Assembly: GCA_029865835.1 (NCBI GenBank)
Contig: JARXAL010000202.1
Coordinates: 1 to 52,406, forward strand
DNA from: Verrucomicrobiaceae bacterium
GTDB taxonomy: Bacteria; Verrucomicrobiota; Verrucomicrobiia; Verrucomicrobiales; Verrucomicrobiaceae
DNA: 52,406 nucleotides
Reading direction: 5' to 3'
Of this stretch, positions 13,510 through 28,351 are shown one piece after another. The translations under genes and the position numbers were made by a program. The notes below the pieces were generated by a model. That model did not search any database and was not told the origin of the DNA. It saw only the letters and a list, made by a program, of their open reading frames with translations. The first letter of the stretch is position 1. Every line of letters begins with the position of its first letter.

Positions 13510-14670
13510 TCAAGAATTGAGGGCTGCTGCATACAGGCGCTCCACCTCGTCCAAACAAAGTCCTGCTCGGAAACGTTCAGCATTTGAGATGCCGTTTATG
13601 ATTCGTTCCTGGCGTTCCTGCGGGCTCAGGGTGAGGAGTTGCTCAAGAGCCCGGGCGGCCTTGGGAGCCCAATCCCGGGGAGGACCGCTGACGGGGATCA
13701 ACGAGGCCGCGCCGCCGGCGACTTCTGTCATCGGGGGGCGGTCGGTGGTGACGACCGGGCAGCCCGATGCCATGGCTTCGGCGATCGGCCAGCCGAAGCC
13801 TTCTTCGAGTGAAGGGAAAAGAAACACACTGGCCGCCTGGTAGGCAAGCCGCAGTGTGGCATCGTCCGCGGCCTGGATGAAATGGATCTCGGCCTTGAAC
13901 GGGGAGTTTGCCTGGAGATCCAGCATTTCCGGCGAAGGTGCTTCCCCGATCATCAGCACCGGCAGTGGCGATGTGGCGGGCAAGGCGCGCCATGCGTGGT
14001 AGAGATGCAATACTCCGGGACGGTTCTTGTACCAGAGATTCCCACCCACATGGAGCAAGAAGCCGCTGGCAAGATCGAGCCCGAGCTTTTCCGAAAGGGC
14101 TTTTCTGGTGGTGATAGGATCGGCGGCCGGGGCGAAGGATTGGTTCAGGCCGTTGTAGACGACATGAGAGAAGTCCGGCGATTTGCCGAGGAATTCGTGG
14201 AGATCTCGGCGGGTGTTTTCGGAAACAGAGATGAAATTCCGGCCCTTGGAATACCCCCAGCGGATGAAGGCCTGATAAATCTGTCCGGACCACGACGTCG
14301 GATTTTCCGGAAATCCACCGCGCGCCGAGCGTTGTGCAAGAAAGTCGTGGCAATGGATCACATGAGGAAGTTTCGCAACCAAGGGAACCCACGGTCCCAG
14401 TGCTTGGTCCGCGAAAACGTAGAGCGTGTCCGTCGGCTGCGACCGGAGCCGGAGCTTCACCGCCAGTGGGAACAATAGGAACTGATCGATGTAGGCCAGC
14501 CACTTTTTCAAGGAGCGTGGTGCGGGCAGTCCGAAAAAATATTTGCGCGCCGTCCACTGTTCCACGGTGTGGCCACGAGCCCGCATGCCTTCTGTTAGCA
14601 TGTTCGCAAAGCGCGGCATGCTCTGTGAACCGAGAAAGGGAGGATGGGTGAATAGGACGATCTTCATCAA
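13510..14670 (-). CDS. Glycosyltransferase family 4
   Basis: SVFLFPSLEEGFGWPIAEAMASGCPVVTTDRPPMTEVAGGAA. Confidence 0.93.
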   Translation of the reverse strand: MMKIVLFTHPPFLGSQSMPRFANMLTEGMRARGHTVEQWTARKYFFGLPAPRSLKKWLAYIDQFLLFPLAVKLRLRSQPTDTLYVFADQALGPWVPLVAKLPHVIHCHDFLAQRSARGGFPENPTSWSGQIYQAFIRWGYSKGRNFISVSENTRRDLHEFLGKSPDFSHVVYNGLNQSFAPAADPITTRKALSEKLGLDLASGFLLHVGGNLWYKNRPGVLHLYHAWRALPATSPLPVLMIGEAPSPEMLDLQANSPFKAEIHFIQAADDATLRLAYQAASVFLFPSLEEGFGWPIAEAMASGCPVVTTDRPPMTEVAGGAASLIPVSGPPRDWAPKAARALEQLLTLSPQERQERIINGISNAERFRAGLCLDEVERLYAAALNS

Positions 14671-15929
14671 TGCGTTTTGGGACCAACAGTGGCCCGAAGA
14701 ACCAAGGCTTCAAAAATCTCGCAGAACGCGGACTCAGTATATTCTGACGCCCGTGTACGGGCGTTCTTTGCACAGGTTTTGAGATTTGCGGGATTGTCCA
14801 GGAAGCCTTTTATCACCCTCGCCATGTCTTCAATATCACCGCAGCGAAACACGCTGCCCGCAGGAGGAGCAGCCATCCAGTCAGGATAAGATCCAGTGTG
14901 ATTTGAAAGCACAAGCGCCAGTCCGGAGATCGCGGCCTCAAGAATGGAATAAGGCCAAGGATCAAGTGCGGACGGATGTAAGAGGAAATCCGCTGCTTGA
15001 AGAATGTCGGGAATCTCACTCTGGTTCTTGAATCCAAGAAATTGAACCTTATCCCCGGCCCCCAGTTCGATCGCTCGCTTTGAAAGAGCCTGCTCGAGTT
15101 CCCCAGAACCCAGGAACCAAAGTTTAAAGTTCCGGTCCTTGAGTTTCACAAGCACTTCAAGCGCATCCATAGGCCGTTTGCGATCAATCAGCTTGCCATT
15201 GACAACTGCTACAATGTCAGCCTTTTGCGCGTTTAGTTTAGCGCGGTATACATCGCGATCGGACGATGTTTCAAAGATCTGCTTTCGATAGACCTCGGAA
15301 TCGGGAACGCATGGAACCCACTCAAGTTGAGGTTCAGACGCGCCGTTTTGTTGCCAGAAAATTTTGTTCTCCCGTCCCTGGAAAGTAACTTTGTCAGCCC
15401 TAGTTGTCATGAACGCCGCGATTTTTTTTCGGATGCCGGACTTAAGCGCATTTTTCTTGACCAAGGTATCTCCATCGCAACGTAACGCGAATGGCTTTCG
15501 ATGGCTTCTTGCCCATAAAAATGCCTGCCAGGCAATGGCATCGGTATAGCCGTTGATATAAAGATAGTCCGGTTGCCATTTATCCAGTTCCGAAGCCAAG
15601 GAGCTTGAATAGCTTTTGAGAAATCCGGGCAACGGCTTGTCTTGGGGCGATTGAAGGAAATGTTCAGGAAAGGAAGTTAGAGTCCGATTGTCCCAATCTA
15701 TCATTTTTCCAAACTCTTTGTCGTTGATCGAGCCCGTAGCGCATCCAAGAAAGAGGGAAATCTCAATGTTGCCTCGCTGGTGAAGCAAATCTATGAGGTT
15801 AACAAAGTACTGGATGCGATGGGTAAGAATCCATGCAACCCTCGGCTTACGCAGGTGCCCGTTTTTTGATGCCATTTGTTTAACTTTCGGTAAAGATGCT
15901 ATCGAGTATCTGCCTGCAAACGTCTTCAT
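14667..15929 (-). CDS. Glycosyltransferase family 4
   Basis: VNGKLIDRKRPMDALEVLVKL..., ADFLLHPSALDPWPYSILEAAISGLALVLSNHTG; stop overlaps the next start (ATGA). Confidence 0.88.
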   Translation of the reverse strand: MKTFAGRYSIASLPKVKQMASKNGHLRKPRVAWILTHRIQYFVNLIDLLHQRGNIEISLFLGCATGSINDKEFGKMIDWDNRTLTSFPEHFLQSPQDKPLPGFLKSYSSSLASELDKWQPDYLYINGYTDAIAWQAFLWARSHRKPFALRCDGDTLVKKNALKSGIRKKIAAFMTTRADKVTFQGRENKIFWQQNGASEPQLEWVPCVPDSEVYRKQIFETSSDRDVYRAKLNAQKADIVAVVNGKLIDRKRPMDALEVLVKLKDRNFKLWFLGSGELEQALSKRAIELGAGDKVQFLGFKNQSEIPDILQAADFLLHPSALDPWPYSILEAAISGLALVLSNHTGSYPDWMAAPPAGSVFRCGDIEDMARVIKGFLDNPANLKTCAKNARTRASEYTESAFCEIFEALVLRATVGPKTH

Positions 15930-16926
15930 TTCCCACTTTGAGCGCCCTTACTTTTGCCATCCCTCCTTGCAGTATGGATATCCTGAGTCCTTCGTTAGCG
16001 ATCAAACGTGTGCATTGCCGCAGGCATTCTTTCGGGGTTTCCCAAAAAACGGCCTCTTTGTCTTCTTTGTAGAGTTCCAGATGTTCTGGAGTTCTCTCGG
16101 CACATAAAAGTCCACCTGCGTAAGGAATCTCAACGGATCTTCGGGTGTGCTGATCCCTGTTTCCATGAGAAAGAAGACCGAGTGAAATTTTTGCACCTGC
16201 GATCGCATTGACATAATCCCGGCCAGAAATCGCTCTGCCTTGCCAACAGTGCTTGAGAAGATCCTCGTCATTGCATTTTTGCCAATGATCGCCCCAGATC
16301 TTCACGTTCAGACTAGCTTCATGTAGTTGGCGCAGAATGACGTGGCGGTTCTCGTGACGCATCCATGACCCGACGAAAGTGACATCAGACTGAAACCTTT
16401 CGGGAACGGGTTTGTCAGGAGAAGGAGGAGAATGAATAATCTCATCATAACTCATCCAGACCCGCAGGGTTTTTCTGGCACCGCGCTGCTGCATTTCTGT
16501 TTCAGTCGGTCGGCGGCGGGTCACGCAGAGATCATAGGAGGGAATCGCTCCAAGGAGTGTGCTCCAAAGTCCGCGGTCTCGGGAGCCGGTGGGATCATCA
16601 TTGTTATAGAGCACCACGGGGCAGCCGAGTTCCCTCAACGCTTGGACGAAATCCTTGGAGAAATGCTCGCCGGAATTCACCCAGCAGAGGTCTGGTTTAG
16701 CGGGCAGTTTGTTCAGTATCCCCACAAGCCAAGATCGCAAGGCCCTATTGGCAAAACGGAAGCCGGTCCGGTAGTTGATGCGTGAAACCCACTTGTTGGA
16801 ATGGATTCCGAAGAGCGCCGTGGCAGGGTTGCGGATCACCACCTGATGCCCTAACCGTTCCAAGGCTTGCGCACGATGGAAACAGGTGCTGCTGCCGCTA
16901 TCATCGCCGAAATAGAGGACAGTCAT
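15880..16926 (-). CDS. CgeB-like glycosyltransferase
   Basis: VLYFGDDSGSSTCFHRAQALERLGHQV..., DVTFVGSWMRHENRHVILRQL, SVEIPYAGGLLCAERTPEHLELYKEDKEAVFW. Confidence 0.78.
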   Translation of the reverse strand: MTVLYFGDDSGSSTCFHRAQALERLGHQVVIRNPATALFGIHSNKWVSRINYRTGFRFANRALRSWLVGILNKLPAKPDLCWVNSGEHFSKDFVQALRELGCPVVLYNNDDPTGSRDRGLWSTLLGAIPSYDLCVTRRRPTETEMQQRGARKTLRVWMSYDEIIHSPPSPDKPVPERFQSDVTFVGSWMRHENRHVILRQLHEASLNVKIWGDHWQKCNDEDLLKHCWQGRAISGRDYVNAIAGAKISLGLLSHGNRDQHTRRSVEIPYAGGLLCAERTPEHLELYKEDKEAVFWETPKECLRQCTRLIANEGLRISILQGGMAKVRALKVGNEDVCRQILDSIFTES

Positions 16927-16982: not shown

Positions 16983-18578
16983 CTATTTTTTGGTCGGATG
17001 GCGCCGGGGAAGGGCGGTCAAATGGAAAACCACCCAATAGAGAACCATTGTCTGGAGGAAGCCACGGCTGACCGCACCAAGCAACGTCGACGGTGACTCC
17101 ATCGTGGTGCTCGTACTGAATGTGCTGAAAAGACTAAATCCCTGTAGGTATCCTATCAGCGGAATGATCGTTTTGAACTCGTTTCGCGCGACCCGCACTC
17201 GGAGGGCGAGTAGATCGCTGAGGAAGAATACAGGCATTGCCATTGCTGCAATGATCACAGGAAAGAAAGACCCGACGTAGCAATATGTAGATGCCATGAG
17301 GCTTCCCGCCTTGAATTCGCCGAATGTCCATGGGGTGTTGTTTCTCAATATCCAGATATAGTCAGCGACCGAACCACCGATAGTTTTCTTTTTGTCGATG
17401 CTGACTCCCAGAGACTGCAAAACAGGACTCGGAAGGGTTGCGAGGGCTCGCCGGTAATCCAGTTCCCGGACGGACACTAGATCCGCTTCTTGCAGTTCAA
17501 AGACCACACTCATGAGATTGTCATGCATCCTAGGGTTTGACAGGCGATTGAAAAATTCGTTGCCGCTGTAGTCTTCATCCCAAAGGCCGTATTTAAGTGT
17601 TAGTGCCTCCACCGCTTCGTTATGATCCCGGGAGGACTGCCTATCCTGGAATGCGATCCAAAACTGGGCAAATCGCTGCGATAATGATACCGACGGGTCG
17701 TGCCGAGATATCTGGGCTGCTCGGAACGCTTGTAAAAGAAGCGGGATGAATATCAAACACAATATGGTGCCCATGACCAAAAGAACGGGCCGCACTTTGG
17801 GCTTGGCCAATGCGCCTGTGCACAGACTTAGAAAATAGATGAGACCGGCATTCACAAACCCGAAAACCACATAGCCCCGCCTCCCTGATGCCATGGCAAT
17901 GAAAAACATGATGGCTGTGAAGCAGGCAAGCGCGACGATATTGCCAGATTTGAGATTCTTCTGTGCTCCCCAACTGGGCTGAATTAGGAGGAAGAAGGGA
18001 ACGAAACTGAAGGGAAAGAAGCCATCGACCACCTTCATCATGATTTCTGGCACATTTCCGCCTCTACTGACATTAAGATACGTTGCAAAGAGGCCCAAGG
18101 ATCCCATGATCCAGAGTTGTGAGTTTTTCGGTGGGGTAAAGAGCCCCGCTGGGGTGAAAACTCTTTTTTGAATTTCGATGCGTGGTATCTGGATGAAATC
18201 CGCTTTGCAATACAGTTTGTGGAGGAGGACTACGAAGCCGAATGTCATCAAGGCCCAGCCAAAGACCACATGAGGTATGTTCATCCTGTGCGCCACGGAT
18301 CTGCCCATGATACTGGTAAAGACAATCGGGAAGAAGAAGTGGGTGAATCCGAAGCCCATCACCACAAGCGATGAAAGCGGATTTTTTGCCAGTGTTTTCC
18401 GATCGAAAACTGTCAGTAGCAGGAGGGTGCCTGCAACGCAGTAAAACACCGAGAGAAAGCGGTCGAGGTCACAGATGACAAATAGGCACTGGAAAATGCA
18501 GGCGGGGACCAAAATGGCAATGATCCCTCTCCTGACGAAAGAGAGGGATAAAGCCTGGGAAATGGCGAGCGTGGTCAT
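16983..18578 (-). CDS. O-antigen/EPS polymerase-like integral membrane protein (Wzy-type)
   Basis: 531 aa with many hydrophobic segments, inside the EPS locus next to a Wzx-like flippase; assignment is by context and topology. Confidence 0.65.
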   Translation of the reverse strand: MTTLAISQALSLSFVRRGIIAILVPACIFQCLFVICDLDRFLSVFYCVAGTLLLLTVFDRKTLAKNPLSSLVVMGFGFTHFFFPIVFTSIMGRSVAHRMNIPHVVFGWALMTFGFVVLLHKLYCKADFIQIPRIEIQKRVFTPAGLFTPPKNSQLWIMGSLGLFATYLNVSRGGNVPEIMMKVVDGFFPFSFVPFFLLIQPSWGAQKNLKSGNIVALACFTAIMFFIAMASGRRGYVVFGFVNAGLIYFLSLCTGALAKPKVRPVLLVMGTILCLIFIPLLLQAFRAAQISRHDPSVSLSQRFAQFWIAFQDRQSSRDHNEAVEALTLKYGLWDEDYSGNEFFNRLSNPRMHDNLMSVVFELQEADLVSVRELDYRRALATLPSPVLQSLGVSIDKKKTIGGSVADYIWILRNNTPWTFGEFKAGSLMASTYCYVGSFFPVIIAAMAMPVFFLSDLLALRVRVARNEFKTIIPLIGYLQGFSLFSTFSTSTTMESPSTLLGAVSRGFLQTMVLYWVVFHLTALPRRHPTKK

Positions 18579-21269: not shown

Positions 21270-22649
21270 CTAGATTGCCAGTTTATCCGCAAGTGCAATT
21301 TGGCGACCCCTCAGGGTACAATCATCTGTCCAATGATATTTCCATTCGGCGAAGCGGCCCGCCATCGTGATTAATCCTTCGGGCTCCGGCTCCCGTGTCC
21401 AGTCGGTGGTGGCATCCAGATCATCACTCCGGCGGAGTAGGCCGTAGCGCTCAAGCCAGTTCCAGATCTTCTCGAGAGCCCCGCGCCGCGGATGGGTGAA
21501 GATGACATTGGCGTAGGGAGCCCAGCGCCAGCCGAATTTGCAGCGGCCCGCAGCGAAGTCATCCCCGCTGATGAAGCCCATTTCGACCATCTCCCCGGCA
21601 ACCTGCTTTGCAATGGTGGATGGATTACCTGGGTAGGGTTTGTGCTTGCTGAAGTAAACTTCGACCTGCACTCCAGTCCATCCATCAGGAGTATTACCTG
21701 GAGCGAGCCGCTCGATGCAGTGAATCCGGGTTGCCCATTTGTCCTCATCATAGACGTAAAACCAATGTCCGGGCAGTTCTTGCAGGTGAGGAGCGAAAAT
21801 GTCCACGATAAGGAGTTGGCTGCAATCTAGGTCCGCCGCCGCCTGACGGACTTCATCAGTCACTTGTACGCAGCGGTTGACGAAATCTGGAAGGGGAATA
21901 GTGGAGACGAGACGATCAAACTGATGACGTGACCCATCCGCGAACCAGAGATTACGATCCACCAAATCAATGGATGAGATCTGTTTGGCGAGATGGATGT
22001 CAGCGTTGTGGGAAAATGCATCGAAAAAAGATTGATAACCTCCGCTTTTCGGATACCGAATGCTGGTGATATAGTGGAGATTCTGATAGGTTTCGGGAAC
22101 AAGGCCGGCTTGTAGCTCTTTCACATCAAGCTTTGGCATTCTAGGGCCCAGCCAGTCGACAGAAAGGTTGACGGGATCGGTGGTCCAATACTTGCGTGTG
22201 TAAGCTGCAGGGAAATTCGAGGCGAACGTCTTGCCGTAGCTAAGTTCCAGCCAATGCCGGTAATTTCGGGGAGTCTCCGCAGATGGTGACCCAGCGGCAT
22301 GGATCATCTCATCGGCGCAGATGTTCCGGAGCGGTTGTGGAATTTGCCATAGATGGGCCTGGGCCGGATGCTCAATCCAGGTCCCTTGATAGAGGTTACG
22401 CGTGCGTACGGGAAACTCGAGGAAATCCCGATTAACGTTCTTCGCGAAAAGCTCCTTTACGTATGCATTTTTCGTAAAAGATACGTGTGGCCCGCGGTCG
22501 ACGGTGAAGCCGAAAAAATTCTCGGAGCCCGCGTGGCCGCCGTGGACGGGATCTCGCTCAAAGATCGAGCAATTCCCGTGGCCGAGATGGAATGACGTGG
22601 AGAGGCCCGCAATTCCGGCACCAAGGATGGTTATATGTCCGGGGTTCAT
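21270..22649 (-). CDS. FAD-dependent oxidoreductase (UDP-galactopyranose mutase/amine-oxidase-like)
   Basis: ITILGAGIAGLSTSFHLGHGNCSIFERDPVHGGHAGSENFFGFTVDRGPHVSF. Start assumed at MNPGH; the ORF extends to 22685. Confidence 0.8.
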   Translation of the reverse strand: MNPGHITILGAGIAGLSTSFHLGHGNCSIFERDPVHGGHAGSENFFGFTVDRGPHVSFTKNAYVKELFAKNVNRDFLEFPVRTRNLYQGTWIEHPAQAHLWQIPQPLRNICADEMIHAAGSPSAETPRNYRHWLELSYGKTFASNFPAAYTRKYWTTDPVNLSVDWLGPRMPKLDVKELQAGLVPETYQNLHYITSIRYPKSGGYQSFFDAFSHNADIHLAKQISSIDLVDRNLWFADGSRHQFDRLVSTIPLPDFVNRCVQVTDEVRQAAADLDCSQLLIVDIFAPHLQELPGHWFYVYDEDKWATRIHCIERLAPGNTPDGWTGVQVEVYFSKHKPYPGNPSTIAKQVAGEMVEMGFISGDDFAAGRCKFGWRWAPYANVIFTHPRRGALEKIWNWLERYGLLRRSDDLDATTDWTREPEPEGLITMAGRFAEWKYHWTDDCTLRGRQIALADKLAI

Positions 22650-22735
22650 TTTCGGAAAGGGAGCGGCAAGGCCATAGATACGCATAATAACGGGGTGGAC
22701 TTCATTAGCGGTCCGTGATCCAAGAAGGTGGGGTG

Positions 22736-23932
22736 CTATGCAACGGCGGCTGAGAATATAGAGTGATCGACCTGAGGAACAAAGCGCATCACTTCACCCT
22801 GACGGTAGGACTTCGCCCCGAAAACTAACTTGCCTTGAGCCTTCCATTGCAACCAACAATCTTCAGCAAAAGCCCGCAATGTTTGGGGATTGCCTGTGCC
22901 GATATGGCGGATCTCAGGCTGGCCTGGAGGGGGAGGGTTTGAACATGCATCAAGCACTTGTCTCGCGACCTCAGCAACAGGAACAAAGTCCCGCACTTGT
23001 TCTCCCTTTGTCATTGGGAAGTCTTCTCCGGCAATGGCTGCTTTGCGCAGCGATGGCCAGAATCTCGATTCCGATTCCCCCTCGCCAAAAACATGGAAGG
23101 GCCGCGCGACCGTCAGTTGCCAGTTTCGCTCCGTCGCCAAACTGATTGCTGCTAGTGTTGCTGCTGCCTTTGAGGCGGAATAAGGACCTATGGGCAGCAG
23201 TGGCGCATTCGGGGGTATGAAGTCAAAGGATTCGCCCGATTTCCCATATTCGAAACACGATCCGAAGAGTTCCAATGCCTTCTGGCAAAACCAGCCGACC
23301 CACCCCTGGTCGAAGGTGGCAAACTGACGCCCGCCATAAATTGACGAATGGCGAAAAACCACCGTTTTCAATCCATAAACTCGGCTCCAGTCACGAACGT
23401 ATTGATCGGCAGCGCCCTTGGAGCAGCCGTAGGGAGTGGTAAAGTCAAGAGGGAGAGATTCATCGAACCCTTCAGGGTGATCAGGCAGCGTATAGCGGGT
23501 TGCAGTCTCTACATAGCGCATCTGTTCCAGATCCCCATAAACCTTGTTCGTCGAGCTGTAGGCGATGAACGCCTCAGGTGAGAAAGAGCGTGCAGCTTCC
23601 AGAACATTGAATGTGCCCACGACATTAGTCCGGAAGTCCCTTTCGGGGTCGGTCAGGGACGTGGTCATCGCCACTTGGCCACCCACGTGACAGATAAAGT
23701 CAAAAGGGCCGTATCGTCGGAACACTTGTTGCAAGCCTTCTTTTTCAGCCAAGTCAAGCTGGGCGAAGGCAAGTTGACCGCTTTTCGCTTTGGATTGAAG
23801 CCATCCCAGGTTTTCAGTGGAACCTCGCCGGAACAATGCGTGAATAACTACGACCTTTTCACCACAGTCCAGATAGTGAGCTGCTAAATTGGAACCAAGG
23901 AACCCGCAACCTCCTGTAATTAAGATATTCAT
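22736..23932 (-). CDS. Chimeric SDR: CDP-paratose/tyvelose 2-epimerase-like N-terminus fused to the C-terminal half of a second NAD-epimerase
   Basis: Residues 1-~222: MNILITGGCGFLGSNLA...SSTNKVYGDLEQ...YGCSKGAADQY..FRHSSIYGGRQFATFDQGWVGWFCQKAL (RfbE/Tyv-like). From ~223: GSCFEYGKSGESFDFIPPNAPL..PYSASKAAATL..FHVFGEGE..FWPSL, paralogous to the adjacent gene at 23929..24795. Confidence 0.88.
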   Translation of the reverse strand: MNILITGGCGFLGSNLAAHYLDCGEKVVVIHALFRRGSTENLGWLQSKAKSGQLAFAQLDLAEKEGLQQVFRRYGPFDFICHVGGQVAMTTSLTDPERDFRTNVVGTFNVLEAARSFSPEAFIAYSSTNKVYGDLEQMRYVETATRYTLPDHPEGFDESLPLDFTTPYGCSKGAADQYVRDWSRVYGLKTVVFRHSSIYGGRQFATFDQGWVGWFCQKALELFGSCFEYGKSGESFDFIPPNAPLLPIGPYSASKAAATLAAISLATERNWQLTVARPFHVFGEGESESRFWPSLRKAAIAGEDFPMTKGEQVRDFVPVAEVARQVLDACSNPPPPGQPEIRHIGTGNPQTLRAFAEDCWLQWKAQGKLVFGAKSYRQGEVMRFVPQVDHSIFSAAVA

Positions 23933-24795
23933 GATGCTGATGGAAAAGTTAGGAAAAAGGGATCAAGTGAGGGAACGTAACGATGAATTTCGCCAGGACG
24001 ATCCGGCCGCCCCCCGACTAAAAGGCGCCCCTTTGCACCGAGACGATTCCACTCCTGGGTGGCAAAGTCTGCCAGACTTACCGGGGTGCCGCTGCCCAAA
24101 TTGGCTAAGCACGGCTGTCCTGGGCGCAAGTCCGCACAGCCACAGGCAGTCAAGAGTTGCGAAGCAACGCTTTCCACGGGAATGAAATCTCTCATCTGAC
24201 GCCCTGAGGTCATGATGAAATCCTGTCCTGAAAGCGCGGCCTGGCAAAGTGACGGCCAGAAATTGCCCTTGTGTTGCCCCTCGCCATACGCATGAAATAT
24301 CCGGCCATAAAACAACTCGCAGTGGGTGATACGGGCATGGGCGCAGAGCGCCACTGATGCTGCTGCCTTGGATGCGCCGTACAAGGTATTTGGTTGGAGG
24401 GCTGCGTTCGCCGGAATGAAGTCATAATGTGCCGCACCATCACCATATTCCAAACAAGTTCCCACTGCGACAATCCGTCGGACTCCTGACGCTACTGCTG
24501 TCTCGACAAGCGCACACGCGACATCCACATTCCAATAGATTAGTTCACGCCAAGTGGCTGCCTTAGGGCTGACGCCCGGCGATGCGAGGTGAACTACGAC
24601 CTCGCTTCCCTGAAGGTCGTCCATGGTCAACTTGTCCATCGGTTTTGTGAGCCAGGTGGGTGCGACAGCCAAGGGCAGTACAGGGCCGGATTCGGAACTC
24701 CGTCGAAGGGCGATCACCTCATGTCCAGCAGCAAGAGCCGCTTGTAGAAAATGAGTTCCTATGAAGCCAGTACCACCGGTGACAAATAGTTTCAT
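23929..24795 (-). CDS. NAD-dependent epimerase/reductase (CDP-abequose/paratose synthase-like)
   Basis: KLFVTGGTGFIGTHFLQAAL..., VVHLASPGVSP, VAVGTCLEYGDGAAHYDFIPANAAL.., LYGASKAA; located in the rfbF/G/H cluster. Confidence 0.82.
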   Translation of the reverse strand: MKLFVTGGTGFIGTHFLQAALAAGHEVIALRRSSESGPVLPLAVAPTWLTKPMDKLTMDDLQGSEVVVHLASPGVSPKAATWRELIYWNVDVACALVETAVASGVRRIVAVGTCLEYGDGAAHYDFIPANAALQPNTLYGASKAAASVALCAHARITHCELFYGRIFHAYGEGQHKGNFWPSLCQAALSGQDFIMTSGRQMRDFIPVESVASQLLTACGCADLRPGQPCLANLGSGTPVSLADFATQEWNRLGAKGRLLVGGRPDRPGEIHRYVPSLDPFFLTFPSAS

Positions 24796-24829: not shown

Positions 24830-26380
24830 TCAAAAGCTGCGGACAAAGCGGGTGATGATGTTTATCTCATGGTCAATCATTGCAGGTGTCAGGCCTGGAA
24901 AGGTGCCAAGGAACAGAGCCGTGTTCATGATCTCATCGGCACCCGGATAGCTGTCGAGAGCCATTCGGATCGCATTCGGACGATCTTTCCGGAGCTGAAC
25001 GAACACGGGTTGCCTGAGCAAGTTGCCGCCGAAAAGCATGCGGTTGCCGATCTTGTGGTCGTCGAGGTGTTGGCCGAGTTGGCTGTGGGTGAAGGGGGCG
25101 GTGGGGCGGACGCGGATCATGAAGCCGAACCAGGAGCAGTCGGTACGGTGGCCGCTGGTGTCCCAGGTGAAGCCATTCGTTGACCAACCCGTGGCATGAG
25201 TAGGGAGACTGAACTCGAAGTATTCTTCGAGATCCGCAAGGCCACGGCGCAACTGTTCCCAGTTTTGTTTGCGGGCTTCAATGAAGGCGGGCAGTTTTTT
25301 GAGTTGCTTGCGTCCGATCGCAGCCTGGGGGTCCAAGGGCTTCAGGTTAAATCCCAAATGGCTGTAAATGTACTTGTGATCAAAACCGTCGGGAAGTTCG
25401 CCGAGTTGCCACTGGAAACGTTTGTTGCAGGTGTTGTCTTTACCTGAGGGGCACCAGCAGTCGCGACCCCAGTCACGAAAGCTTTCCGCGTAGGTTTTCA
25501 GCGGCGGCCGACGGATGATGCTCACGGCCCCGCCTTCGCCCATGGTCAAGTGATGGGGGGGATAGAAGGACTGAGTGCTGAGATCACCAAAGGTGCCGGT
25601 GGGGGCGGTCAGGAGTGGCGTGGCGGGATTGGAATCATCAATGTGGATGAACGGATGGTTTCCTTGCTCCGCGATCTTCAAAAGGTGATCGAGACCGAGG
25701 GCTTTAGCCTTGGCGACCGGCAGCGTGTAAGTGCAACCGAGGGCGTCGCAGTTGTCTTCGATTAGCCAGAGGTCGTACTTTTTGCAGAAGGCAATCACCG
25801 CGCCAAAATCGAAGGGATTGCCGAGGGTGTGCGCCATCATGACGGCTTTGGTTTTCCCGGGCGCGTAGGCGGCTTCGAGTTGATCCACCCGGACATTCCC
25901 CGTCGAGGGGTCATTGTCGATGAAGACGGGCACGGCACCGACCTGCAGGATCGGAGCGACGGTCGTGGGAAATCCAGCGGCGCAGGTGATGACTTCATCG
26001 CCGGGTTGGATGCGTTTGTGATCCGGAAGCTTGTGGGTGGTGAGCGCTGAAATGGCCACGAGATTCGCTGAGGAGCCGGAATTAACCAGCAGGCAGTGTT
26101 TCACGCCGAGGAGGGCGGCGAGTTCGGTTTCAAAGGCCTCACCCTCGGGGCCCAAGGTGAGCCAAAAGTCGAGCGTGCAAGATACAGCTGCTTCGACCTC
26201 ATCCTCGGTGAACACACGGCCTGCGTAAGGAACGCCATTTTGCCCGGGCACAAAGGTAGCGCGTTGCGGATCGGCGCCGGGGCGGTTTTCGGTGTGGGTG
26301 AGTCGGGAGTACTCGCGGGTAAGGCGCAGGATCTCGGTTTTGATTTCGGAAGAGTTCATTTTGATTTCGGAAGAGGTCAT
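24830..26380 (-). CDS. rfbH: CDP-4-keto-6-deoxy-D-glucose 3-dehydrase (E1)
   Basis: FWLTLGPEGEAFETELAALLGVKHCLLVNSGSSANL, YPPHHLTMGEGGAVS (His replacing PLP Lys), RDWGRDCWCPSGKDNTCNKRFQWQLGELPDGFDHKY (Fe-S Cys motif). Confidence 0.95.
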   Translation of the reverse strand: MTSSEIKMNSSEIKTEILRLTREYSRLTHTENRPGADPQRATFVPGQNGVPYAGRVFTEDEVEAAVSCTLDFWLTLGPEGEAFETELAALLGVKHCLLVNSGSSANLVAISALTTHKLPDHKRIQPGDEVITCAAGFPTTVAPILQVGAVPVFIDNDPSTGNVRVDQLEAAYAPGKTKAVMMAHTLGNPFDFGAVIAFCKKYDLWLIEDNCDALGCTYTLPVAKAKALGLDHLLKIAEQGNHPFIHIDDSNPATPLLTAPTGTFGDLSTQSFYPPHHLTMGEGGAVSIIRRPPLKTYAESFRDWGRDCWCPSGKDNTCNKRFQWQLGELPDGFDHKYIYSHLGFNLKPLDPQAAIGRKQLKKLPAFIEARKQNWEQLRRGLADLEEYFEFSLPTHATGWSTNGFTWDTSGHRTDCSWFGFMIRVRPTAPFTHSQLGQHLDDHKIGNRMLFGGNLLRQPVFVQLRKDRPNAIRMALDSYPGADEIMNTALFLGTFPGLTPAMIDHEINIITRFVRSF

Positions 26381-26392
26381 TGAATAAGGAGT

Positions 26393-27544
26393 CTAAGCCG
26401 CAAGGCAGGTGCGCTGTGTGGAGGGTTGCGCCCAGGGGAGCCCAAGTTCCCGGGCGGTTTCTGCGTAAACATGGATTTGTGAACGAGTCAGAGCTGAAGC
26501 GGTGGTGGTGTGCGGCCTAGCCGCATACCATGCGGCAGTCTCTGCCAAGGTGCGTTCAAAGCTCCAGACTGGTTGCCACTGGAGAAGATGGAAGGCTTTG
26601 TCGATGGCGAGGTTGAGTTTCGAGGCTTCATGGCGTGCGTGAGGATCTGAATGATCCTCCCAGTTGCAGCCTGGAAAATGCTTGAGAAGTTCGTGAACCA
26701 GGTCAGCGACGGTGCGGTTGCTGGTTAGGGAAGGCCCGAAGTTGAAGGCCGATGAGAGGATCGAAGGCGAAGGTCCAAAGTGGGCTTCACTTCCGGTTGC
26801 CGTTGCCATGCTGGCAGCTAACCAAAGATAGCCCGAGAGGGGCTCAAGAACATGCTGCCAGGGTCGCGTCGCCGTCCTATTGCGCACGGGAATCGCCTTG
26901 CTCGATTCGATGGCGCGGATGCAGTCCGGCACGATGCGGTCTGCGGCCCAGTCCCCGCCGCCAATCACATTCCCTGCGCGTGCTGACGCCAGCCGCACCG
27001 AGCTTTCAGGGGCTGAAAAGAAGGAGCTTCGCCAAGCTGAGACAACTAGCTCTGCGCAACCCTTGGAAGCACTGTAGGGGTCGTAGCCGCCCATGGCATC
27101 CTCTTCGCGGTAGCTATGCAGCCATTCCCGGTTTTCATAGCATTTGTCGGTGGTGACGACCACAACGGCGCATGCGTGCCCGCCCTGGCGCACGGCCTCA
27201 AGCACATGGCTGGTTCCCATGACATTGGAGGCGAAGGTTTCAACTGGTATATCGTAGGAGAGGCGAACCAGGGGCTGGGCAGCCATGTGGAAAACCACGT
27301 CTGGTCGAAGTGCGGCCACGACCGTTTCCAATCGTTTGCGATCTGCCAGATCGCCACGGTGATCGGCTTGTAACCGCTGGCTGAGTCCGAGAAGGTCATA
27401 AAGGACCTGATCAGGTTGGGGATCCAAGGCAAAGCCCGTGACCTTCGCCCCAAGTTCGTGTAGCCACTGGCATAACCAACTGCCCTTAAAGCCTGTGTGG
27501 CCCGTGACGAGGACTTTTTTATCTCGATAGAAATTTCCGAACAT
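26393..27544 (-). CDS. rfbG: CDP-glucose 4,6-dehydratase
   Basis: KVLVTGHTGFKGSWLCQWLHELGAKVTGFALDP..., VVVVTTDKCYENREW..YREEDAMGGYDPYSASKGCAELVV. Confidence 0.95.
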   Translation of the reverse strand: MFGNFYRDKKVLVTGHTGFKGSWLCQWLHELGAKVTGFALDPQPDQVLYDLLGLSQRLQADHRGDLADRKRLETVVAALRPDVVFHMAAQPLVRLSYDIPVETFASNVMGTSHVLEAVRQGGHACAVVVVTTDKCYENREWLHSYREEDAMGGYDPYSASKGCAELVVSAWRSSFFSAPESSVRLASARAGNVIGGGDWAADRIVPDCIRAIESSKAIPVRNRTATRPWQHVLEPLSGYLWLAASMATATGSEAHFGPSPSILSSAFNFGPSLTSNRTVADLVHELLKHFPGCNWEDHSDPHARHEASKLNLAIDKAFHLLQWQPVWSFERTLAETAAWYAARPHTTTASALTRSQIHVYAETARELGLPWAQPSTQRTCLAA

Positions 27545-27571: not shown

Positions 27572-28351
27572 TTACCAGACTTTCCAAGGGGCCTCGCCCT
27601 TATCCCAGAGTTCTTCGAGGGTGATCTTGTCACGTAGCGTGTCCATGGGCCGCCAAAAGCCACGATGTCGGTAGGCTGCCAGTTGGTCTTCGGCAGCTAG
27701 GGCTTCCAGAGGTCTGCGCTCCCAGATGGTGGCATCGCCCTCTTTGATGTAATTAAGGACGGAAGGGTCCAGCACAAAAAACCCGCCATTGATCCAGGCT
27801 CCGTCGCCTTCAGGCTTTTCCTGGAACTGTCCGATCAATCGTTCATCGCTGCAATGGAAAAGAAGCGAGCCGTAGCGTCCGGGAGGCTGAACGGCCGTCA
27901 GGGTCGCTCGTTTGCCGTGTTCACGGTGGAAGGCAATGGATGCGCTGATATCCACGTCGGCCACACCATCGCCGTAGGTGAAACAAAAAGCCTCATCGTC
28001 CAGGAAGGGTGCGACACGAGCGAGACGTCCGCCCGTCATCGTGTCATCCCCTGTGTCAACGATGGTAACATTCCAAGGTTCCGCTTTGCGCTTGTGCACC
28101 TCCATCTTGTTGTCAGACATGTGAAAGGTGACATCAGACATGTGCAGGAAGTAATTGGCGAAGTACTCCTTGATCACGTAGCCCTTGTAGCCTGCGCAGA
28201 TGATGAAATCATTGATGCCGTGTGAGGAATACATTTTGAGGATGTGCCAAAGAATGGGACGTCCTCCAATCTCCACCATGGGCTTGGGTTTGAGGTGGGT
28301 TTCCTCCGAAAGACGGGTGCCAAGGCCCCCTGCTAGAATGACGGCTTTCAT
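27572..28351 (-). CDS. rfbF: Glucose-1-phosphate cytidylyltransferase
   Basis: MKAVILAGGLGTRLSEETHLKPKPMVEIGGRPILWHILKMYSSHGINDFIICAGYKGYVIKEYF. Start moved from ORF position 28504 to MKAV at 28351. Confidence 0.96.
   Translation of the reverse strand: MKAVILAGGLGTRLSEETHLKPKPMVEIGGRPILWHILKMYSSHGINDFIICAGYKGYVIKEYFANYFLHMSDVTFHMSDNKMEVHKRKAEPWNVTIVDTGDDTMTGGRLARVAPFLDDEAFCFTYGDGVADVDISASIAFHREHGKRATLTAVQPPGRYGSLLFHCSDERLIGQFQEKPEGDGAWINGGFFVLDPSVLNYIKEGDATIWERRPLEALAAEDQLAAYRHRGFWRPMDTLRDKITLEELWDKGEAPWKVW

Follow-up and report, generated by a model that had tools for sequence, protein, structure and literature searches.

The 3,6-dideoxyhexose cluster of a Verrucomicrobiaceae bacterium (GCA_029865835.1, contig JARXAL010000202.1) hosts a gene whose two ends resemble two different sugar-nucleotide enzymes. 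Is this gene a working hybrid, or is it what remains of a recombination event? The analysis covers 52,406 nucleotides, referred to below as the window. We put at roughly 0.6 the probability that the gene is a recombination scar in a cluster of the O-antigen type, with the tyv step abolished and CDP-paratose (or abequose) as the end product.

Two parents in one reading frame

The rfbF, rfbG and rfbH genes make CDP-4-keto-3,6-dideoxyglucose, which is reduced by prt or abe to CDP-paratose or CDP-abequose. The tyv gene inverts C-2 of paratose, resulting in tyvelose. In the window these genes lie on the minus strand in the order rfbF (glucose-1-phosphate cytidylyltransferase, 27572..28351, counted from the ATG where the family model begins; TIGR02623, 463 bits against a cut-off of 300), rfbG (CDP-glucose 4,6-dehydratase, 26393..27544; TIGR02622, 467 bits against 278) and rfbH (CDP-4-keto-6-deoxyglucose-3-dehydrase, 24830..26380; NF011936, 616 bits against 423). 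These are followed by an intact prt-like SDR of 288 aa, a probable CDP-paratose/abequose synthase (23929..24795, minus strand, 57% identity to Cyanobium prt), then by the chimeric gene and, directly downstream of it, by an FAD-dependent amine-oxidase-like gene (21270..22685, minus strand).

The chimeric ORF occupies 22736..23932 on the minus strand and encodes 398 aa between an ATG start and a TAG stop. Its reading frame is intact, as is the 4-bp ATGA overlap between its start and the stop of the upstream prt. The preliminary description had reported both of these features, as well as an architecture with two parents. BLAST and alignments to PDB structures confirm the architecture, and add that the strand, which had been left unstated, is minus.

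The first parent is a CDP-tyvelose 2-epimerase. Residues 1-222 (23267..23932, minus strand) contain the Rossmann NAD domain, the TNK segment, a YGCSK motif, the CDP-closing loop and the first helix of the substrate domain. Over residues 1-221, identity is 75-77% to tyv of Cyanobium/Synechococcus (76-77% for Cyanobium) and 52-62% to the tyv genes of many other bacteria. With the solved CDP-tyvelose 2-epimerases 9rl0 and 1orr the alignment covers residues 1-223 and then stops, and chance cannot account for the family assignment (E = 3e-86 against the PDB).

The second parent is another sugar-nucleotide SDR, which we label SDR2. Residues 223-398 (22736..23266, minus strand) begin at a catalytic GSCFEYG strand, continue to a YSASK motif and end in a C-terminal domain with QVRDF (R314). 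The match, over residues 224-390, is only to the C-terminal half of prt-like SDRs, from about residue 112 onwards. Identity reaches 58-59% for SDRs of other genomes (G220/G234), compared with 45-46% for the neighbouring prt at 23929-24795, and this assignment is also far beyond chance (E = 4e-61 against genomes). The C-half shares the catalytic YxxSK and the motifs of the C-terminal lobe with the prt/abe-type CDP-3,6-dideoxyhexose synthase SDRs that follow rfbH; the common set is GSxxEYG, YxxSK, WPSL, QVRDF, GTG and P/YR..E..RxVP. A fold search with the AlphaFold model of this half matched only a generic SDR half.

The halves meet where QKALEL runs into FGSCFEYG (23255..23275, minus strand), and the alignments place them about 90 aa out of register. 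The switch falls between residues 222 and 223, at window positions ~23264-23269, which is inside the interval 23250-23275 that had been proposed for it. The two YxxxK motifs were likewise found at the residues given for them, YGCSK at 168-172 (23417..23431, minus strand) and YSASK at 251-255 (23168..23182, minus strand). The Pfam Epimerase model matches two separate stretches of the protein.

Occurrence of the architecture in other genomes

A scan of 85,488 species genomes, with one genome per species, provided 61 related loci, none of which hosts the same tyv-SDR fusion. Every tyv in these loci is a separate ORF, and the adjacent related SDR, where present, is upstream of tyv. In the loci of the same order and class tyv is likewise a separate full-length ORF after the prt-type SDR. 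This is the order of intact clusters in general, with nothing prt-like downstream of tyv. A second full-length match was also sought in 57 relatives and in 291 class, 394 phylum and 389 order genomes (the sets overlap, about 1,135 genomes being counted in all), and none was found. Among the plasmid records with a query coverage of at least 80%, the best matches (Azospirillum) are two adjacent genes, an SDR and then tyv. The fusion is absent from the viral contigs, and a literature search for a chimeric O-antigen epimerase found nothing.

With no homologue of the same architecture in the loci, the related genomes, the best plasmid matches or the viral contigs, an established family of fused epimerases is ruled out. 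Homologues of 398 aa across many taxa, which the preliminary description had named as evidence against its reading, were looked for and none was found among the genomes searched. This particular fusion is found nowhere else that was searched, and events of this kind are ordinary for surface-polysaccharide clusters.

In two loci, Tyv-like epimerases form the C-terminal part of stop-to-stop ORFs, one of 801 aa (L118 1066-3468) and one of 717 aa (L120 1120-3270). The 370-430 residues ahead of them have no Pfam match, and both may simply be frames that happen to stay open, not fusions.

A junction seen in no other strain, in an assembly of 292 contigs that is 85.56% complete, could be a product of assembly or binning. 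Two molecules or strains of the metagenome would then have been misjoined, and the organism would have separate intact genes. We regard this as unlikely but keep it as a serious rival. The join is exactly in frame and the GC of the two halves is similar (0.52 and 0.54). The tyv-derived part and the SDR2-derived half share only short chance DNA matches, while those between the latter and prt are scattered, about 25 bases or less, and contain mismatches; no repeat able to drive a collapse was seen. Furthermore, neither the last ~120-130 aa of tyv nor the first ~110 aa of SDR2 was found anywhere else in the assembly, other contigs included.

Kept and lost parts of the two enzymes

The N-terminal part resembles Tyv/RfbE (PDB 1orr and 9rl0) in its glycine-rich NAD motif (GGCGFLGSN, residues 7-15), VAM and TNK segments, Thr/Tyr/Lys triad, Gly197-Trp207-type loop and first C-domain helix. 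The triad and the TNK segment are present and aligned as SSTNK, Y168 and K172, which correspond to Thr124, Tyr164 and Lys168 in the numbering of the Thermodesulfatator enzyme. Near-invariant Tyv positions are kept at 61 of 62 sites. The exception is residue 31, at the end of the second Rossmann strand, where a CAC codon (23840..23842, minus strand) encodes His; all 65 of 65 Tyv homologues have Asp here. This Asp presumably holds the adenosine ribose of NAD, as in extended SDRs.

Apart from the His at position 31, the chimera differs from Tyv/RfbE in that the C-terminal CDP-sugar-binding lobe (~219-340) is absent and an SDR half is attached instead. Tyv homology ends at residue 221-223. The Thermodesulfatator enzyme uses the C-terminal domain to bind the CDP-sugar. 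In simulations its Arg237 and Arg299 touch the alpha-phosphate, a mobile loop at 297-302 covers the site, and strand 13 forms part of the Rossmann sheet (PMC13098431). Both arginines, the loop and strand 13 are beyond the junction, and hence lost. The C-half has the complementary deficit. It keeps 24 of 25 near-invariant SDR positions, the sole change being Pro to Ser, but it differs from prt/abe-type SDRs in that the N-terminal Rossmann half, and with it any site for binding NAD(P), is absent. The loss of the Tyv substrate domain and of the N-terminal half of the second enzyme had both been proposed from the sequence, and the limits of homology, at residues 221-223 of Tyv and ~112 of the SDR, bear this out.

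Could the remaining pieces cooperate? In a working hybrid the NAD domain and triad of Tyv would act with the homologous C-terminal lobe of SDR2, with C-2 specificity either kept or changed, and the duplicated segment of ~60-80 aa would be looped out. Almost all conserved sites are kept, neither the frame nor the translational coupling is disturbed, and AlphaFold predicts the C-half with confidence from its own alignment (pLDDT > 90). In addition, R237 of Tyv (the R of QVRDV in 339-340-aa Tyvs) and R314 of the chimera are found in the same motif, QVRD(F/V). It is conceivable from this correspondence that the SDR2 lobe could take over the lost function, provided that the duplicated segment is looped out. 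However, the out-of-register join gives the protein two catalytic segments and two first helices, the Asp of the NAD site is His, and no second genome among those searched has the fusion.

AlphaFold was run on two half-alignments, as a joint MAFFT alignment had put the SDR fragments on the homologous Tyv segment. Each half was confident only when its own relatives were in the alignment, and in neither run did the halves fold together (pTM 0.46 and 0.51), although neither alignment spanned both halves and the models thus say nothing about the packing of one against the other. We give a working hybrid epimerase only a small chance. A functional enzyme in which the Tyv NAD/catalytic domain uses the substrate lobe of a different SDR, making a 3,6-dideoxyhexose other than tyvelose, seems less probable still.

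The chimera most likely has no CDP-paratose 2-epimerase activity, and the end product of the cell would then be that of prt, CDP-paratose or CDP-abequose. The preliminary description had left a choice between a novel hybrid enzyme and a dead pathway step. The lost Tyv lobe, the out-of-register join and His31 make the dead step the likelier of the two.

The outcome itself, paratose in place of tyvelose, is already known. In Salmonella group A and Paratyphi A tyv (rfbE) is a pseudogene and paratose replaces tyvelose (PMC6712391, PMC12068720). Both cases involve an rfbFGH-prt cluster that has lost the epimerase step, with a paratose side sugar predicted here. The Salmonella gene carries a frameshift, whereas ours is an in-frame join of two genes in an unrelated bacterium, known from sequence alone. 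If the gene is indeed a scar, it is a second, independent loss of the tyv step in a 3,6-dideoxyhexose cluster, in a different phylum, and it illustrates with one gene that the reshuffling of O-antigen clusters also goes on at a scale smaller than the gene. If instead the protein works, an SDR epimerase can tolerate the replacement of a lobe out of register. Curators should be warned that an automated pipeline would name the gene as an epimerase, with tyvelose as the predicted sugar.

Origin of the join

The breakpoints are not homologous. The join connects Tyv residue 222, in the first helix of the substrate lobe, with SDR residue ~112, at the catalytic GSCFEYG strand, and aligners put the SDR fragments on Tyv's own catalytic segment. 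An in-register domain swap is ruled out by these breakpoints and by the duplicated catalytic segment. A homologous swap would leave one YxxxK motif and the chimera has two; the join is illegitimate. Microhomology at the junction is limited to 11-12-mers that are repeated in the window, as expected by chance.

Which gene donated the C-half? The preliminary description had called it paralogous to the adjacent gene and regarded the chimera as a likely fusion-deletion between neighbours. The adjacent prt is intact and is not the donor. A recent duplication of prt is ruled out by a protein identity of 45% and by DNA matches that are short and scattered, about 20-25 bases or less.

Phylogenetic trees suggest different histories for the two halves. 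The closest group to the tyv-derived part is the Cyanobium tyv clade, its sister with support 98/93, and the intact prt is likewise sister to Cyanobium prt (93/87). Since both are sister to Cyanobium, prt and tyv have a common history. The C-half is placed outside the Cyanobium clade, among SDRs of the class that follow rfbH, mostly in clusters without tyv, though support here is weak. The rfbF, rfbG and rfbH genes of the window are closest to genomes of the same order, e.g. rfbF is 82% identical to that of G820 and 71-72% to those of Cyanobium. In G820 (locus L152) rfbF-rfbG-rfbH are followed by one SDR, which matches the C-half at 53% identity and prt at 46%. This cluster is a useful reference for the ancestral one, and the simplest reading is that SDR2 was resident and that prt-tyv is the newcomer.

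Further down, the G820 cluster contains relatives of window genes 16983-18578 (52%), 15880-16926 (63%) and 14667-15929 (28%). The region 13608-17529 of L152 is a same-order cluster that shares a putative polymerase-like gene and the next two genes with the window.

We propose that a piece of prt-tyv DNA from a Cyanobium-like lineage was placed between rfbH and the resident SDR2. The downstream end of the incoming piece would have been inside tyv and joined inside SDR2, at a cost of ~120-130 codons from the end of tyv and ~110 from the start of SDR2. The product keeps the NAD domain and catalytic triad of Tyv and has lost the C-terminal CDP-sugar lobe. In place of this lobe it has an SDR half, joined out of register, in which the catalytic segment occurs a second time and which brings no NAD domain. 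Homology-facilitated illegitimate recombination relies on homology at a single end, the other end having none (PMC3240628). One such one-sided event, anchored upstream, would probably suffice in a single step, and an insertion followed by a deletion could give the same product; the order of events is inferred. The truncated end of an incoming gene, joined inside a resident gene, is what the remnants of this process have in common with our locus. They differ in that an upstream homologous crossover was not located here; sliding identity along rfbH gave no clear switch and no change at the 3′ end.

Several observations do not sit easily with a scar. The frame, the start and the prt overlap are intact, and the conserved positions of both parents are nearly all in place. 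The end branch of the tyv-derived part, at 0.24, does not exceed those of its intact relatives (0.26-0.43). With conserved sites kept and an ordinary branch, there is no sign of long decay. The join may be recent, or the product may still be constrained, alternatives that the sequence alone cannot tell apart. Furthermore, GC3 is similar in the C-half (0.51), prt (0.53) and the tyv-derived part (0.55), while that of rfbH and rfbG is 0.70 and 0.62. This would fit a joint arrival of prt, tyv and SDR2, and is a point against the proposed insertion.

Joint arrival would also allow a plain deletion, where prt, tyv and SDR2 were all full-length and ~0.7 kb was then lost from the middle of tyv to the middle of SDR2. 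Once the three genes were adjacent a single in-frame deletion would be enough, and the functional consequence would be the same. Yet no prt-tyv-SDR2 array is found in any locus read and the trees give the genes different histories, which makes this quite improbable. The fusion-deletion of neighbouring genes in the preliminary description can therefore be upheld in part. The join of two parents and the one-off architecture stand; a simple deletion within one cassette does not fit the intact order of SDR(prt)-tyv or the grouping of the C-half elsewhere.

Two minor observations concern the genes on either side of the prt-chimera pair. The amine-oxidase-like gene at 21270-22685 may be a member of the dideoxyhexose pathway, because in G103 (L122 8425-9939) a relative with 45% identity comes right after the SDR. 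The rfbH of the window is 516 aa long, compared with ~440 for the curated RfbH model, owing to extra segments, one of them before GTFGDLSTQSFYPPHH. Long versions of rfbH are common to the same-order relatives, and in some loci (L128) the rfbH ORFs reach ~750 aa.
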